This document shows, piece by piece, positions 23,009 to 37,393 of a stretch of 39,785 bases of DNA. The position numbers were made by a program, and so were the translations under genes. Where the stretch lies: positions 1 through 39,785 of the forward strand of contig JAFCCJ010000004.1 in assembly GCA_017610305.1 (NCBI GenBank). Direction: 5' to 3'. The notes below the pieces were generated by a model. The model did no database searches and was not told the origin of the DNA. It saw only the letters and a list, made by a program, of their open reading frames with translations. Positions within the stretch are counted from its first letter, which is position 1. The number at the start of each line of letters is the position of its first letter. Source of the DNA: Candidatus Iainarchaeum sp. (GTDB lineage: Archaea; Iainarchaeota; Iainarchaeia; Iainarchaeales; JAFCCJ01).

Positions 23009-23077
23009 ATGAGTAAGGATAATTTTTTGAATAAATTGCTTGTTTTGCTAGTCCTTGGTCTGATTTTGGTACTGTAA
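23009..23077 (+). CDS. Candidate Leu/Val/Ile-rich leader peptide (22 aa) of the BCAA operon
   Basis: ATG AGT AAG GAT AAT TTT TTG AAT AAA TTG CTT GTT TTG CTA GTC CTT GGT CTG ATT TTG GTA CTG TAA = MSKDNFLNKLLVLLVLGLILVL*; 9 Leu, 3 Val, 1 Ile; immediately upstream of leuA. Confidence 0.75.
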   Translation: MSKDNFLNKLLVLLVLGLILVL

Positions 23078-23080
23078 AGT

Positions 23081-23112
23081 GCCCTCTGAATCACAAACGA
23101 ATTTTAGAGGGC
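23081..23112 (+). promoter_or_regulatory. RNA hairpin just after leader stop
   Basis: GCCCTCT (23081-23087) / AGAGGGC (23106-23112), extended inward by GAA/TTT (one G-U); starts 3 nt after the leader stop codon. Confidence 0.7.
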
Positions 23113-31600: not shown

Positions 31601-32658
31601 GTAAAAAGATTGCAGTTTTAGCTGGAGACGGAATAGGTCCTGAGGTAATTGCCGAAACCCTTAAGGTTTTGCATGCGGTTGAAGAAAAGTTTGGCGCAAA
31701 ATTTGAATTTAATGAGGCATTGATAGGCGGTGCCGCAATAGATGAAAAAGGAAAGGCCCTTCCTGATGAAACTCTGGAATTGTGCAAAAACTGCGATGCA
31801 ATTCTTTTGGGCGCAGTTGGCGGGGACAAGTGGGATAAACTTCCGCCTGAAGAGAGGCCTGAAAGGGCTGCACTCCTTCCATTGCGGAAAGAATTTGATT
31901 TATTTGCAAACTTAAGGCCGGTGAAAGTATTTCCTGCTCTGGCAAATGCATCCACACTGAAAGCTGAAATAATTGAGGGCGGATTTGACATAATGATAGT
32001 GCGGGAATTAACCGGGGGAATTTATTTCGGGAAGAAGGGAAAAGGAAATGACTGGGCAAGTGATGAGCTCAAATATTCAGTCCCTGAAATCGAAAGGGTT
32101 GCAAAAGTAGCTTTTGAGATTGCAATGAAGCGCGGAAAGAAAGTTTGTTCTGTTGACAAGGCAAATGTCCTTTCTTCAATGGTTTTGTGGAGGGAGACCG
32201 TTGAAAAACTGGCGAAAGAGTTTCCTGAGATTGAACTTTCGCATATGTATGTTGATAATGCGGCAATGCAGTTGGTGAGAAACCCAAAGCAGTTTGATGT
32301 TATTGTAACTGGGAATATGTTTGGAGATATTTTAAGCGATGAGGCATCTATGATAAGCGGAAGCATAGGAATGCTTGCATCAGCATCCCTGCGGGAGGAC
32401 TCTTTCGGTTTATATGAACCAATCCACGGCTCAGCTCCTGATATTGCAGGCCAGAATAAGGCAAACCCAATGGCGACCATTTTAAGCGCCGCAATGATGC
32501 TTCGCCATTCTTTTGGAATGGAAAAAGAGGCAAAAGCGGTGGAAACTGCAGTAAATGCAGTTCTTGAAGAGGGGTTTCGCACAGGGGACATAATGCAGAA
32601 AAACTGCAAACAACTGGGAACCAAGGAAATTGGGGATGAAATTGCCAAAAGAGTGTAA
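31597..32658 (+). CDS. leuB: 3-isopropylmalate dehydrogenase
   Basis: [90 protein letters not shown]. Confidence 0.96.
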
Positions 32659-32684
32659 AAAATCCCGAGTTTCCACCAACATGC

Positions 32685-32693
32685 TTTTTAATA
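32685..32693 (+). promoter_or_regulatory. Box A/TATA element upstream of aromatic leader ORF
   Basis: TTTTTAATA about 28 bp upstream of ATG at 32717, consistent with a nearly leaderless transcript. Confidence 0.55.
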
Positions 32694-32716
32694 ACTAACT
32701 TCCCCTATAATTAATT

Positions 32717-32809
32717 ATGACATACATCAGCCTGCATAATAGGCCGTCGCTTGTGGTGATGTTAGTGGATGCTCTTTCTTCTATCCCATATTTTTTCTTT
32801 TATTGGTAA
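32717..32809 (+). CDS. Candidate aromatic leader peptide (30 aa) ending Y-F-F-F-Y-W-stop
   Basis: MTYISLHNRPSLVVMLVDALSSIPYFFFYW*; terminal codons TAT TTT TTC TTT TAT TGG TAA; lies between box A and the talC-pheA-tkt-aroF operon. Confidence 0.8.
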   Translation: MTYISLHNRPSLVVMLVDALSSIPYFFFYW

Positions 32810-32812
32810 TTT

Positions 32813-32839
32813 AGGCAGTACCATTTATGGCGACTGTCT
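32813..32839 (+). promoter_or_regulatory. RNA hairpin just after aromatic leader stop
   Basis: AGGCAGT (32813-32819) / ACTGTCT (32833-32839), one G-U, optional inner CCA/TGG; starts 3 nt after the leader stop; followed by TCTCAAAAAAG. Confidence 0.55.
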
Positions 32840-32889
32840 TCTCAAAAAAGATTAGATAAGGGAATAGAGGAAGAAAAGGAGGGGAAATT

Positions 32890-33540
32890 ATGAAAATTTT
32901 TATTGATACCGCAAATGTTGAGGAAATTAAGGAGGCCGCTTCCTGGGGAATAGTGGATGGTGTAACCACGAACCCTACTCTCATTTCAAGGGAAGGAAGG
33001 GACTTCAAGGAAGTTGTTAAGGAAATTTGCTCCATTGTTGATGGCCCAATCAGCGCAGAGGCTGTTAGTGAGGATGCTGCAGGAATGGTTAAAGAGGCTG
33101 AAGAACTCAGCAAAATCCACAAAAATATTGTTGTGAAGATTCCGATGACTGCTGAGGGGTTAAAGGCAACAAAAGAGTGCACTGGGAAGGGAATTAAGAC
33201 CAATGTAACACTTATTTTCTCCGCAAACCAGGCATTGCTTGCCGCAAAAGCAGGCGCAACTTATGTAAGCCCTTTTGTGGGGAGATTGGATGATATCGGG
33301 GAAAGCGGAATGCAGCTGGTTGAGGATATTGTTGAAATCTTTAAGAATTATGGTGTTCTGAAAACAGAGATTATTGTCGCAAGCATAAGGCACCCGATGC
33401 ATGTAATTGATGCAGGAATAATCGGCGCCCATATTTCAACAGTTCCATTTGGTGTTTTGGGGAAGATGATTAAGCACCCGCTAACTGATAAGGGAATAAA
33501 TGCATTTTTGGAGGACTGGAAAAAAGTTCCTAAAAAGTGA
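32890..33540 (+). CDS. Transaldolase / fructose-6-phosphate aldolase-like (TalC type)
   Basis: [73 protein letters not shown]. Confidence 0.93.
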
Positions 33541-33546
33541 TTTTGA

Positions 33547-34614
33547 ATGAGTCTGGCAGAAAAAAGAAAGGAAATCGATAAGGTCGATTTGAAGATTCTG
33601 GAATTGCTGAAGGCGAGGGTAAATCTTGCAAAGGATATTGGCAAGGTCAAGGCAAAGGGCAAGGGAGATATTTTCGTCCCTTCTCGGGAAAAGGAAATTA
33701 TCAACAATCTGCTGAAGAAAAACAAGGGCTCTGTCCCTGAGGAATGCATCAGCGGAGTTTATGGGGAAATATTCAGCGCATGCAGGAATATTGAAAGCCC
33801 GCTGAAAATCGCATATCTCGGACCTAAAGCAACATTTACACACATAGCTGCAATAAAGCAGTTTGGCTCATCCCCGGAATTCATTGCAAAGGATTCAATA
33901 AGTGAAGTGTTCTCAGATGTTGAAAAGAAAGTGGTGAGCTATGGGGTTGTGCCTATTGAGAATTCCCAGGAAGGAACCGTCACCCACACCCTGGACATGT
34001 TCCTGAAATATGATATTGACATTGTTTCAGAAAGAATGCTGGAGGTTAAGCACCATCTCCTTTCAAATCATGGGGTGAAGGAAATAAAGAAGATTTACAC
34101 CCACCCGCATGCAATGGCGCAGTGCAGGAACTGGATTGCAAAAAACCTGCCAAAGGCAGAGCTTATTGAGGTTTCCTCAACAACAAAGGGGGCGGAATCC
34201 GCATCCCTTTACCACAGCTCGGCCGCAATAGCCTCTGAACTGGCTGCAAAGGAATATGCTCTCGGCATAATTGCAAGAAACATAGAGGACAGCGGAAAAA
34301 ACCATACCCGTTTCCTTATTATCGGGGAATCAAAGCCAAAAAATACCGGAAAAGACAAAACATCCATGGTTTTTTCTGTGAAGCATGAGTCAGGCGCACT
34401 TTTCAGTGCCCTTAAATCATTTCAGGATTATGGTGTCAATATGACAAAGATTGAGAGCAGGCCCACCAAATTAAAAAACTGGAATTATGTTTTCTTTGTT
34501 GATGTGCAGGGATATATTGACGATGAAAAAATCAAGAAAGCCCTCAAGGATATGGAAAAATCAACAGGGTTTATAAAAATCCTGGGCAGTTACCCGGAAG
34601 AAAATAACAAGTGA
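33547..34614 (+). CDS. pheA: Bifunctional chorismate mutase / prephenate dehydratase with ACT domain
   Basis: AroQ-like IDKVDLKILELLKARVNLAKDIGKVKA; IAYLGPKATFTHIAAIKQFG; VVPIENSQEGTVTHTLDMF; NHTRFLII; ACT with KIESRPTK. Confidence 0.95.
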   Translation: MSLAEKRKEIDKVDLKILELLKARVNLAKDIGKVKAKGKGDIFVPSREKEIINNLLKKNKGSVPEECISGVYGEIFSACRNIESPLKIAYLGPKATFTHIAAIKQFGSSPEFIAKDSISEVFSDVEKKVVSYGVVPIENSQEGTVTHTLDMFLKYDIDIVSERMLEVKHHLLSNHGVKEIKKIYTHPHAMAQCRNWIAKNLPKAELIEVSSTTKGAESASLYHSSAAIASELAAKEYALGIIARNIEDSGKNHTRFLIIGESKPKNTGKDKTSMVFSVKHESGALFSALKSFQDYGVNMTKIESRPTKLKNWNYVFFVDVQGYIDDEKIKKALKDMEKSTGFIKILGSYPEENNK

Positions 34615-34618
34615 TATT

Positions 34619-35437
34619 ATGAAACTGGATTCACACAAGGATTTGGAGCAGAAGGCAAGAGAGATCAGGAGAGAAATCATTAAAATGCTCTCAATTTCGG
34701 GGAGCGGCCATCCCGGGGGAAGCCTTAGCGCAACTGACCTAATGGTTGCATTGTTCTACCATGAGATGAATTACAATCCCAATGAACCACTATGGCCTGA
34801 CAGGGACAGGTTTGTGTTAAGCAAAGGCCATTGCTGCCCTGCACTTTATGCGATACTTGCAGATTTAGGTTATTTCCCAAAAGAAAAGCTGAAAACTTTA
34901 AGAAAATTGAATTCGCCATTGCAGGGGCATCCATCTTACACACATATTCCCGCGGTTGAGGCAAGCACCGGCCCATTAGGGCAGGGATTGAGTGTGGGAA
35001 ATGGAATTGCGCTTGCAGGAAAACTGGACAAGAAAGATTATCATGTTTATGTTATGCTCGGCGACGGGGAGATGCAGGAAGGAAATGTCTGGGAAGCAAT
35101 GATGACCTCGAGCCATTACAAGACTGATAATTTAACCGCAATAGTGGATTACAATAATTTGCAGATTGACGGAAAGGTTAGTGAGGTTAAGGAAGTTATG
35201 CCCCTGAAGGACAAATTCAAGTCATTTGGCTGGGAAGTGTTTGAGGTTAATGGCCATAAAATGAAGGATATTGTCAAGGTTTTGGGAAAAGCCAGGAAGA
35301 AGAAGGGAAAACCTAGTGTGATTATTGCAAAAACCATTAAGGGCAAGGGGGTTTCTTTTATGGAGAATATTGTTGATTTCCATGGAGTGACACCAAATGA
35401 AGAGGAAACTGCAAAGGCACTAAAGGAGCTGGAATGA
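34619..35437 (+). CDS. Transketolase, N-terminal (TPP-binding) subunit
   Basis: GSGHPGGSLSATDLMVALFYHEM; STGPLGQGLSVGNGIALAGKL; GDGEMQEGNVWEA. Confidence 0.95.
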   Translation: MKLDSHKDLEQKAREIRREIIKMLSISGSGHPGGSLSATDLMVALFYHEMNYNPNEPLWPDRDRFVLSKGHCCPALYAILADLGYFPKEKLKTLRKLNSPLQGHPSYTHIPAVEASTGPLGQGLSVGNGIALAGKLDKKDYHVYVMLGDGEMQEGNVWEAMMTSSHYKTDNLTAIVDYNNLQIDGKVSEVKEVMPLKDKFKSFGWEVFEVNGHKMKDIVKVLGKARKKKGKPSVIIAKTIKGKGVSFMENIVDFHGVTPNEEETAKALKELE

Positions 35438-36375
35438 TGGACGCAAAGGCGACAAGGGAAGGATATGGAGATGGCCTTGCAGAGCTGGGCGAATCCAGGC
35501 CTGAAGTTGTGGCACTTGATGCGGATTTGGCAAAATCAACCAAATCAATTAATTTTAAGGAAAAATTCCCTGAAAGGTTTTTCGAGATGGGAATCAGCGA
35601 GCAGGATATGGTGGCGACTGCTGCAGGATTTGCCTTAAGCGGAAAAATTGCATATGCATCAAGCTTTGCCTGCTTCATTACAGGGCGAGCTTATGATCAA
35701 GTAAGGACCTCAGTATGTTACTCAAATGTTAATGTGAAACTTGTCGGGAGCCATGCAGGATTAATGACTGGGGAAGACGGAGCAACCCACCAGGCTTTGG
35801 AGGATATTTCATTGATGAGGTCACTTCCTAATATGAAGGTAATTGTCCCGGGAGATTATTTCGAGGCAAAGATTGCGACAAAAAAGGCAGCCGAAATTCC
35901 AGGGCCGGTTTATCTTCGAATGGCAAGGGCAAAAACCCCTATTTATTTCAATGATGATTACAATTTCACCTTAGGAAAGGGGGTTGTGATGGAATCAGGC
36001 TCAGATGTGGCCATAATTGCCTGTGGTGCGCCATTGCAGTATGCCATTGAGGCCGCTGAAAGGCTTAAAAAGGATAAAATTGACGCAGCAGTGGTCAACA
36101 TGCCATCTATTAAACCTTTAGACGCAAAACTTGTTTCTAAGATGGCCACTCAGGCAGGCGCGATAGTAACTGTTGAGGACCATTCAATCTATGGCGGGTT
36201 AGGAAGCGCTGTTTCAGAGGTAATGGCTGAGGAAGGCCTTGCACCTGTTGAAAGGGTTGGAACAAAGGATGTGTTTGGGGAAAGCGGAAAAGGGCCAGAG
36301 CTTTACAAAAAATATGGCCTGGATTCTGATGGAATAATTAATGCAGTTAAAATTGTAATGGGAAAACGGAAGTGA
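35434..36375 (+). CDS. Transketolase, C-terminal subunit
   Basis: LDADLAKSTKSINFKEKFPERFFEMGISEQDMVATAAGFALSGKIAYASSFA; ATG overlaps previous stop. Confidence 0.95.
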   Translation: MMDAKATREGYGDGLAELGESRPEVVALDADLAKSTKSINFKEKFPERFFEMGISEQDMVATAAGFALSGKIAYASSFACFITGRAYDQVRTSVCYSNVNVKLVGSHAGLMTGEDGATHQALEDISLMRSLPNMKVIVPGDYFEAKIATKKAAEIPGPVYLRMARAKTPIYFNDDYNFTLGKGVVMESGSDVAIIACGAPLQYAIEAAERLKKDKIDAAVVNMPSIKPLDAKLVSKMATQAGAIVTVEDHSIYGGLGSAVSEVMAEEGLAPVERVGTKDVFGESGKGPELYKKYGLDSDGIINAVKIVMGKRK

Positions 36376-36379
36376 TAGA

Positions 36380-37393
36380 ATGATAATAGTGATGGGGAAA
36401 GAAGCTGATGCAAACAACGTTAAAGCAGTTATTGAGAAAATAAAATCCGCAGGGTTAAAGGCATTTATTTCAGAAGGTGAATTTGTCACAATTATCGGGG
36501 TTGTGGGAGATGTCACAAAACTAAAGAAGGGCGAATTTGAAAGAATGGACGGCGTTGACAGAATAGTTGCCGTAATGAAACCCTATAAACAGGCATCAAG
36601 GGATTTCCACCCGAAAAATTCTGTTATTGAAGTAGATGGCGTAAAAATTGGCGGGGAAAAGATTACAATTGCCGCAGGGCCTTGTGCAATTGAGTCAGAA
36701 GAGTTTCTCTTTTCTATTGCAGAATCTGTTAAAAAATCAGGGGCGGAAATTTTCAGGGCTTCGGCTTATAAACCAAGGAGCTCACCCTATGATTTTCAGG
36801 GCATGGGTGAGAAGGGCCTGAAAATGCTGAAGAAAGTTAAGGAAGAGACAGGTTTAGTTGTGGAAACAGAGGTAATGGACACGAGAAATGTTGAACTGGT
36901 CGCAAAATATGTTGATATTTTAAGGGTTGGCGCAAGGAATATGCAGAACTTCGACCTGCTTAAGGAAGTGGGAAAGGTGAGCAAGCCAGTTATTCTTAAA
37001 AATGGAATTTCCGCAACGATTAGTGAATTTCTAATGGCGGCAGAATATATTATGAGTGAGGGAAATCACGAGGTAATCCTTTGTTATAGGGGGATAAGAA
37101 CACATGAGCCTGCTGTAAGAAACAGCATGGACATACTTGCAATTCCTCTCCTCAAAGCTAACACACATCTGCCGGTTATAGTTGACCCAAGCCATGCTGC
37201 CGGGAATTTCAGGTTTATTGAGGCAACTAGCAGGGCCGCAATTGCCGCAGGTGCTGATGGCTTGTTGGTTGAGGTGCACTGCAATCCTGAGAAAGCTATG
37301 TGCGATGGCAAACAAAGCCTTACAACACAAAAATTCGACTCCCTGATGAAAAACTTGAAAGCTGTGGCTGCAGCTGTTGATAGAAAAATGTGA
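36380..37393 (+). CDS. aroF: 3-deoxy-7-phosphoheptulonate (DAHP) synthase, type I-beta with N-terminal ferredoxin-like domain
   Basis: ITIAAGPCAIESEEFLFSIAESVKKSGAEIFRASAYKPRSSPYDFQGMGEKGL; CYRGIRTHEP; VIVDPSHAAGNF. Confidence 0.95.
   Translation: MIIVMGKEADANNVKAVIEKIKSAGLKAFISEGEFVTIIGVVGDVTKLKKGEFERMDGVDRIVAVMKPYKQASRDFHPKNSVIEVDGVKIGGEKITIAAGPCAIESEEFLFSIAESVKKSGAEIFRASAYKPRSSPYDFQGMGEKGLKMLKKVKEETGLVVETEVMDTRNVELVAKYVDILRVGARNMQNFDLLKEVGKVSKPVILKNGISATISEFLMAAEYIMSEGNHEVILCYRGIRTHEPAVRNSMDILAIPLLKANTHLPVIVDPSHAAGNFRFIEATSRAAIAAGADGLLVEVHCNPEKAMCDGKQSLTTQKFDSLMKNLKAVAAAVDRKM

Follow-up and report, generated by a model that had tools for sequence, protein, structure and literature searches.

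The window, by which we mean the whole stretch of 39,785 nucleotides that was analyzed, carries an operon of aromatic amino acid synthesis headed by a short ORF, and its features are given here on the forward strand. The structural genes are a talC/fsa transaldolase-like gene (32890–33540; TIGR00875), pheA encoding a fused chorismate mutase-prephenate dehydratase (33547–34614), the N-terminal and C-terminal subunits of transketolase (34619–35437 and 35434–36375, respectively), and DAHP synthase (36380–37393; TIGR01361), in agreement with the aromatic-pathway operon described in the original prediction. A Shine-Dalgarno-like GGAGGGG of talC is located at 32878–32884. The window also carries TFB (TFIIB) and Hef nuclease, which indicates an archaeal source.

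Leader ORF and Promoter

Between the promoter and talC, the position in which the short ORF of an attenuator is found, lies a 30-codon ORF, MTYISLHNRPSLVVMLVDALSSIPYFFFYW, at 32717–32809, which reads ATG ... CCA TAT TTT TTC TTT TAT TGG TAA and is separated by an 80 nt spacer from the talC start; counterparts are present in 12 other genomes. Six successive aromatic codons at the stop codon had been claimed for this ORF, and the sequence reads accordingly: TAT TTT TTC TTT TAT TGG, which we regard as the regulatory codons, occupies 32789–32806, with the Trp codon as the last of the run Y-F-F-F-Y-W. The ORF itself ends at 32809; position 32889, at which the predicted range ended, immediately precedes the first base of talC. 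When ORFs of 15–45 codons were collected in six frames from 1.214 of the 1.238 Mb of the window's genome, MTYISLHNRPSLVVMLVDALSSIPYFFFYW was the only one of 15,349 with a six-aromatic run within the last eight residues, and runs of at least five were found in four, the three others having five each. The aromatic tail is therefore not due to chance, as the original prediction had argued, being unique in the genome and sited where such a run makes functional sense.

The box A (TATA) that had been noticed upstream of the ORF was identified as the 8-mer TTTTAATA at 32686–32693, 31 nt upstream of the ATG. All 13 Phe leaders have a box A matching at least seven of eight positions 27–36 nt upstream of the start, compared with a frequency of 12.7% among 946 intergenic short ORFs in the window's own genome; no p-value is given because the genomes are related and hence not independent. 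Seven of the 16 Leu leaders described below have a box A at this distance. Because the spacing is 29–34 nt in all 13 Phe leaders, similar to the distance of about 25–30 nt before the start codon by which leaderless genes are recognized, these leaders are probably leaderless, and transcription of the pheA operon is predicted to start at the leader ATG or a few nt away from it. No second box A was found between the MTYISLHNRPSLVVMLVDALSSIPYFFFYW leader and talC, the best match there being 6/8.

Aromatic Leaders in Related Genomes

The comparison covered 75 genomes of the order, 31 of which have a match to the pheA product at E ≤ 0.001, including 15 close full-length relatives and one fragment; a wider search of the class and phylum gave no pheA outside the order. 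That relatives with the same operon might lack an aromatic-rich short ORF, the outcome named as adverse in the original prediction, was not borne out. Of the 16 operons with a pheA arrangement of this type, 13, spread over five families, are headed by an aromatic-tailed short ORF; the 16 include G066, although its upstream sequence is too short to judge. The tails, each ending at the stop codon, are PYFFFYW (G000), YFAYWYFYFFE (G007), YSAFWYFYFFE (G056), YFAYWYFV (G061), YFAYWYFA (G060), NWYFFYFE (G039), SFWFFFYFG (G062), WFFNFFFFY (G014), FYFYFWFFK (G015), FYFYFFFFK (G067), YSYFYFW (G027), GFYYFW (G016), and YFCVYFFW (G041). In G039 and G062, the leader ORF is separated from pheA by other genes of the same gene run, and for the G041 leader and several Leu leaders an internal ATG was chosen as the start codon. 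Leaders were also searched for in the pheA operons of G012 and G013 and not found, G013 having an aromatic-rich frame but no usual start codon.

The N-terminal parts of the 13 leaders are divergent and share almost nothing between families, while the aromatic tail is kept. The closest pair is that of G060 and G061. Over the last 15 codons, these two leaders show four synonymous differences (two at Tyr, TAC/TAT; one at Ile, ATC/ATT; one at Ser, AGC/AGT) and a single replacement, in the final codon; over the N-terminal half, they show six replacements and zero synonymous changes. Small as these numbers are, the pattern points to translation of the tail. Because a scan of 80 bacterial pheA loci gave no short ORF with six aromatic residues among the eight of its tail, an aromatic ORF is not a general neighbor of pheA; inheritance of the leader along with a bacterial pheA was rejected on the same count.

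Leu/Val/Ile Leaders Before leuA

The same window contains another leader ORF, MSKDNFLNKLLVLLVLGLILVL, at 23009–23077 ahead of leuA (start 23163) and its leuA-ilv operon, in which Leu, Ile, and Val make up 12 of the last 14 residues, the next best ORF in the genome having 9. Leu/Val/Ile-rich ORFs, such as MKTAGSFGTKSTNYLLSLLVLLLVLLLG, MNFNARIRKLGILLVLVLVLLA, and MKSKISNNVCFVKTNKSISSLLTLLLLLAL, precede leuA in 15 relatives too, giving 16 leaders of this kind in six families. The last 12 residues contain 6–9 Phe, Tyr, or Trp and 0–3 Leu, Ile, or Val in the 13 Phe leaders, versus 7–11 Leu, Ile, or Val and no aromatic residue in the 16 Leu leaders. Product-specific codons clustered near the stop codon, a mark of attenuators, are thus found in all 13 Phe and 16 Leu leaders, and no other single argument is as strong as this match between the residues of a leader and the product of its pathway. 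Since a separate leader family precedes leuA, the comparison shows that the proposed rule, under which the regulated amino acid is also the leader amino acid, would be general in the order.

RNA Structure After the Leader Stop Codon

In the window, the sequence following the stop codon of MTYISLHNRPSLVVMLVDALSSIPYFFFYW is predicted to form a hairpin (−10.5 kcal/mol, z −3.17) from a left arm AGGCAGT at 32813–32819 (segment 2) and a right arm ACTGTCT at 32833–32839 (segment 3). Segment 1, TGGTA at 32804–32808, consists of the Trp codon and the first two bases of the stop codon and may pair over 5 bp with TACCA at 32819–32823. The MSKDNFLNKLLVLLVLGLILVL leader has a stop-adjacent hairpin too (GCCCTCT...AGAGGGC, 23081–23112, z −4.98). 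In 29 of the 29 Phe and Leu leaders, the left arm of the best spacer helix begins 1–5 nt past the stop codon, under a search that allowed left-arm starts at +1 to +7 only; the right-arm end falls between +26 and +52, in most cases between +28 and +39. Location is properly tested by how often the 10 nt directly past the stop codon are paired: their pairing probability has a mean of 0.75 versus 0.466 (sd 0.040) in dinucleotide-shuffled sets. Folding of the 60 nt past the stop codon gives a mean z of −1.42 (n = 29), compared with −0.11 in a control set of 250 upstream regions from the window's own genome.

The arms vary in sequence with pairing kept, as in GCACTTCC:GGAAGTGC, GCACCCGC:GCGGGGTGC, and GCCCCAGGCC:GGCCGGAGGGGC. 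Covariation of the hairpin is suggestive and in formal terms weak, one pair being changed on both sides among six aligned Phe hairpins of family f8. Alternatives to this hairpin are convincing in some families only. Among the f8 Leu leaders, the last codons clearly take part in competing 1:2 helices (GCTAGGA:TCCTAGC); at the pheA leader of the window the 1:2 helix is limited to TGGTA:TACCA. A competing 3:4 helix is seen in four f8 Phe leaders (G007, G056, G060, and G061) but was found neither in every leader nor in the window.

No intrinsic terminator (stem plus U-run) was found before the first gene within 32600–32900. Because archaeal termination does not need a stem, this absence excludes the bacterial form only. 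Runs of at least five T within 60 nt of the stop codon occur in 45% of the leaders versus 20% of controls, many of them within the hairpin loop (+18 to +24), but a conserved T-run directly past the hairpin was not found and T-runs are missing from several leaders including that of the window, so that a conserved T-tract terminator was rejected as the output. We also noted two features of the spacers. In Leu and f8 Phe spacers, a T-run of 3–9 is located at about +18 to +24 past the stop codon, in the hairpin loop before the right arm. Families f8 and f16 have, in their leuA spacers (e.g., L263 and L258), a conserved RAAGTCNTTA-like motif between the hairpin and leuA, and in G067 it could pair perfectly with the hairpin loop (GACTTCTG:CAGAAGTC), possibly as a pseudoknot.

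Trp and Other Candidate Leaders

A predicted leaderless micro-ORF with a conserved D-x-L-W core, exemplified by MQGDSLWLQ, MARRDLLWLKSICFE, and MPSDSLWVRE, precedes trpE in about 15 genomes, a count that leaves out the window's own genome, where the contig begins inside trpE. Loci with the micro-ORF upstream of trpE include L341, L342, L343, L344, L345, L348, L351, L354, and L358. It is possible that this ORF is a single-Trp sensor or an arrest peptide. In several genomes, a tRNA-Trp (CCA) gene is located between the micro-ORF and trpE; such tRNA genes upstream of trpE were found at L341:582–655, L344:589–662, L352:655–727, and L354:566–639, and on the reverse strand at L342:3110–3184 and L343:3135–3207. 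A tRNA with an insert was observed in G041 (L345), and G027, G062, and G066 have similar copies that look split.

No His leader was found within 1.5 kb of hisG. The window's genome has, just before the aspartokinase-asd genes (lysC), an ORF with a Thr/Lys/Ile/Met-rich tail, MYSLNLVKFGTNQNMSTTTKIKTTKMC (L216:4089–4172, contig C77), which starts shortly past a box A-like sequence. The relatives showed no such leader before lysC, and with this single-genome occurrence we do not claim it as a member of the leader family.

Proposed Mechanism and Alternative Explanations

We consider it likely, with a rough probability of 0.82, that MTYISLHNRPSLVVMLVDALSSIPYFFFYW is the leader peptide of an amino-acid-specific, ribosome-sensed cis-regulatory element. 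The sequences show the ORF, its conservation with an amino acid class that matches the pathway, the distance to the promoter, and a hairpin in each of the 29 Phe and Leu leaders; from these we infer that the leader is translated and stalls ribosomes, which way the operon responds, and how the output may arise, as follows. Transcription would begin at or beside the leader ATG, and a ribosome would load on the leaderless mRNA with RNA polymerase still near. When charged Phe, Tyr, or Trp tRNA is scarce, the ribosome would stall within the last 4–8 codons and leave free the bases just past the stop codon, so that the 2:3 hairpin AGGCAGT:ACTGTCT could form; when aromatic amino acids are ample, a ribosome at the stop codon would mask the left arm and no hairpin would form then. 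That the left arm is free on stalling and covered by a ribosome on the stop codon is expected because of the geometry of leader and hairpin, and translation speed over the aromatic codons would decide which state reaches the talC-pheA-tkt-DAHPS genes. By likeness to other biosynthetic operons, we expect stalling to correspond to the ON state.

Two explanations deny the ORF a regulatory role. The T-rich CATATTTTTTCTTTTATTGG could be an archaeal T-tract terminator that serves the ilv-leu operon upstream, with the aromatic reading a mere by-product of TTT and TAT; archaeal RNA polymerase is known to terminate at T-tracts, and the leuB stop codon lies 59 nt ahead of the ORF start. However, relatives keep the aromatic residues with other codons and no long T-run (G060, TAT TTT GCT TAC TGG TAC TTT GCA) and show synonymous TAT/TAC changes, no run of T-rich codons occurs in the parallel Leu leaders, and the box A-ATG spacing is conserved; we regard this artefact as largely refuted, deserving hardly any weight, and have rejected it. 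A functional small protein, e.g., a membrane peptide, would fit the conserved position and the hydrophobic tail, but it would explain neither the N-terminal divergence between families nor a tail that is aromatic or Leu/Val/Ile according to the pathway encoded downstream, and such a function seems very improbable.

Other alternatives accept a regulatory ORF and differ in how it senses or acts. Instead of tRNA charging, the leader might sense a free amino acid in the ribosome tunnel as a TnaC-like arrest peptide, and the trp micro-ORF, with its single Trp in a D-x-L-W core conserved like a motif beyond the needs of codon counting, has this character. Many regulatory codons in series are a mark of tRNA-charging sensing, and the Phe and Leu leaders keep only the residue class and the run of regulatory codons, without a motif, which makes arrest improbable for them. 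As a variant of the ribosome-sensed leader, the output may be translational, with the leader ribosome altering access to or reinitiation at the start of the first gene without transcription termination. This would be consistent with the lack of a terminator in the window's spacer, the strong Shine-Dalgarno site of talC, and spacers of mostly 70–130 nt, but accessibility of the Shine-Dalgarno site and start codon, computed for 23 leaders folded at 13 ribosome positions, showed no consistent trend; a switch at these sites was rejected as the common output, and we hold the translational form to be possible and on the unlikely side. For the ribosome-sensed leader, premature termination in the spacer, either T-tract or FttA/aCPSF1-dependent, has about an even chance of being the output, and an effect on RNA stability or another step appears rather unlikely. 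Factor-dependent termination by aCPSF1/FttA has been reported near promoters in Saccharolobus (PMC8448881), and it is a possible output of the leader.

Comparison with Known Regulatory Systems

No example of attenuation or antitermination was known in archaea as of 2021 (PMC8448881), and our search of open-access papers, with subscription papers and preprints outside its range, found no archaeal leader-peptide attenuation. We give roughly equal odds for and against the view that this archaeal order (Iainarchaeota/Diapherotrites, DPANN-type) has evolved its own Phe, Leu/Val/Ile, and Trp attenuators, with leaderless micro-ORFs, a stop-adjacent hairpin, and an output that differs from the intrinsic terminator of bacteria, namely termination of the T-tract or FttA/aCPSF1 type read out by the ribosome. 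The pheA locus and its 28 counterparts provide a concrete and testable case for translation-sensed operon control in archaea, and they suggest that ribosome-polymerase coupling may serve regulation there. Short leaderless ORFs thereby gain notice as regulators, and amino acid regulons of uncultured archaea could be annotated by sequence alone through such leaders.

Among known systems, TrpY and TK0271 also control aromatic amino acid synthesis in archaea, but these are DNA-binding regulator proteins acting at the promoter (PMC6737238), in contrast to the leader translation proposed here. T-box riboswitches likewise sense amino acid shortage ahead of biosynthetic genes, but they work through direct binding of tRNA, with no requirement for a leader ORF; an Rfam scan of 11 loci, including Phe and Leu ones, gave tRNA matches only and no match to the T-box covariance model. 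The closest likeness is to bacterial ribosome-mediated attenuators, e.g., E. coli pheL-pheA, leuL, ilvL, and trpL and the actinobacterial leaders (PMC1262725, PMC11857589), with which these leaders share the short ORF between promoter and operon, the run of own-amino-acid codons beside the stop codon, and an RNA hairpin whose left arm would be covered by a ribosome at the stop codon. Sequence homology between bacterial and archaeal leaders is not expected. The archaeal leaders differ in their archaeal promoter, the predicted leaderless leader ORF, and a hairpin that begins at +1 to +5 past the stop codon, and no GC hairpin with U-run terminator was found at the pheA leader. Judged in this way, the element falls outside the bacterial class on the intrinsic terminator, yet it appears to work like a leader-peptide attenuator, a device so far known from bacteria.
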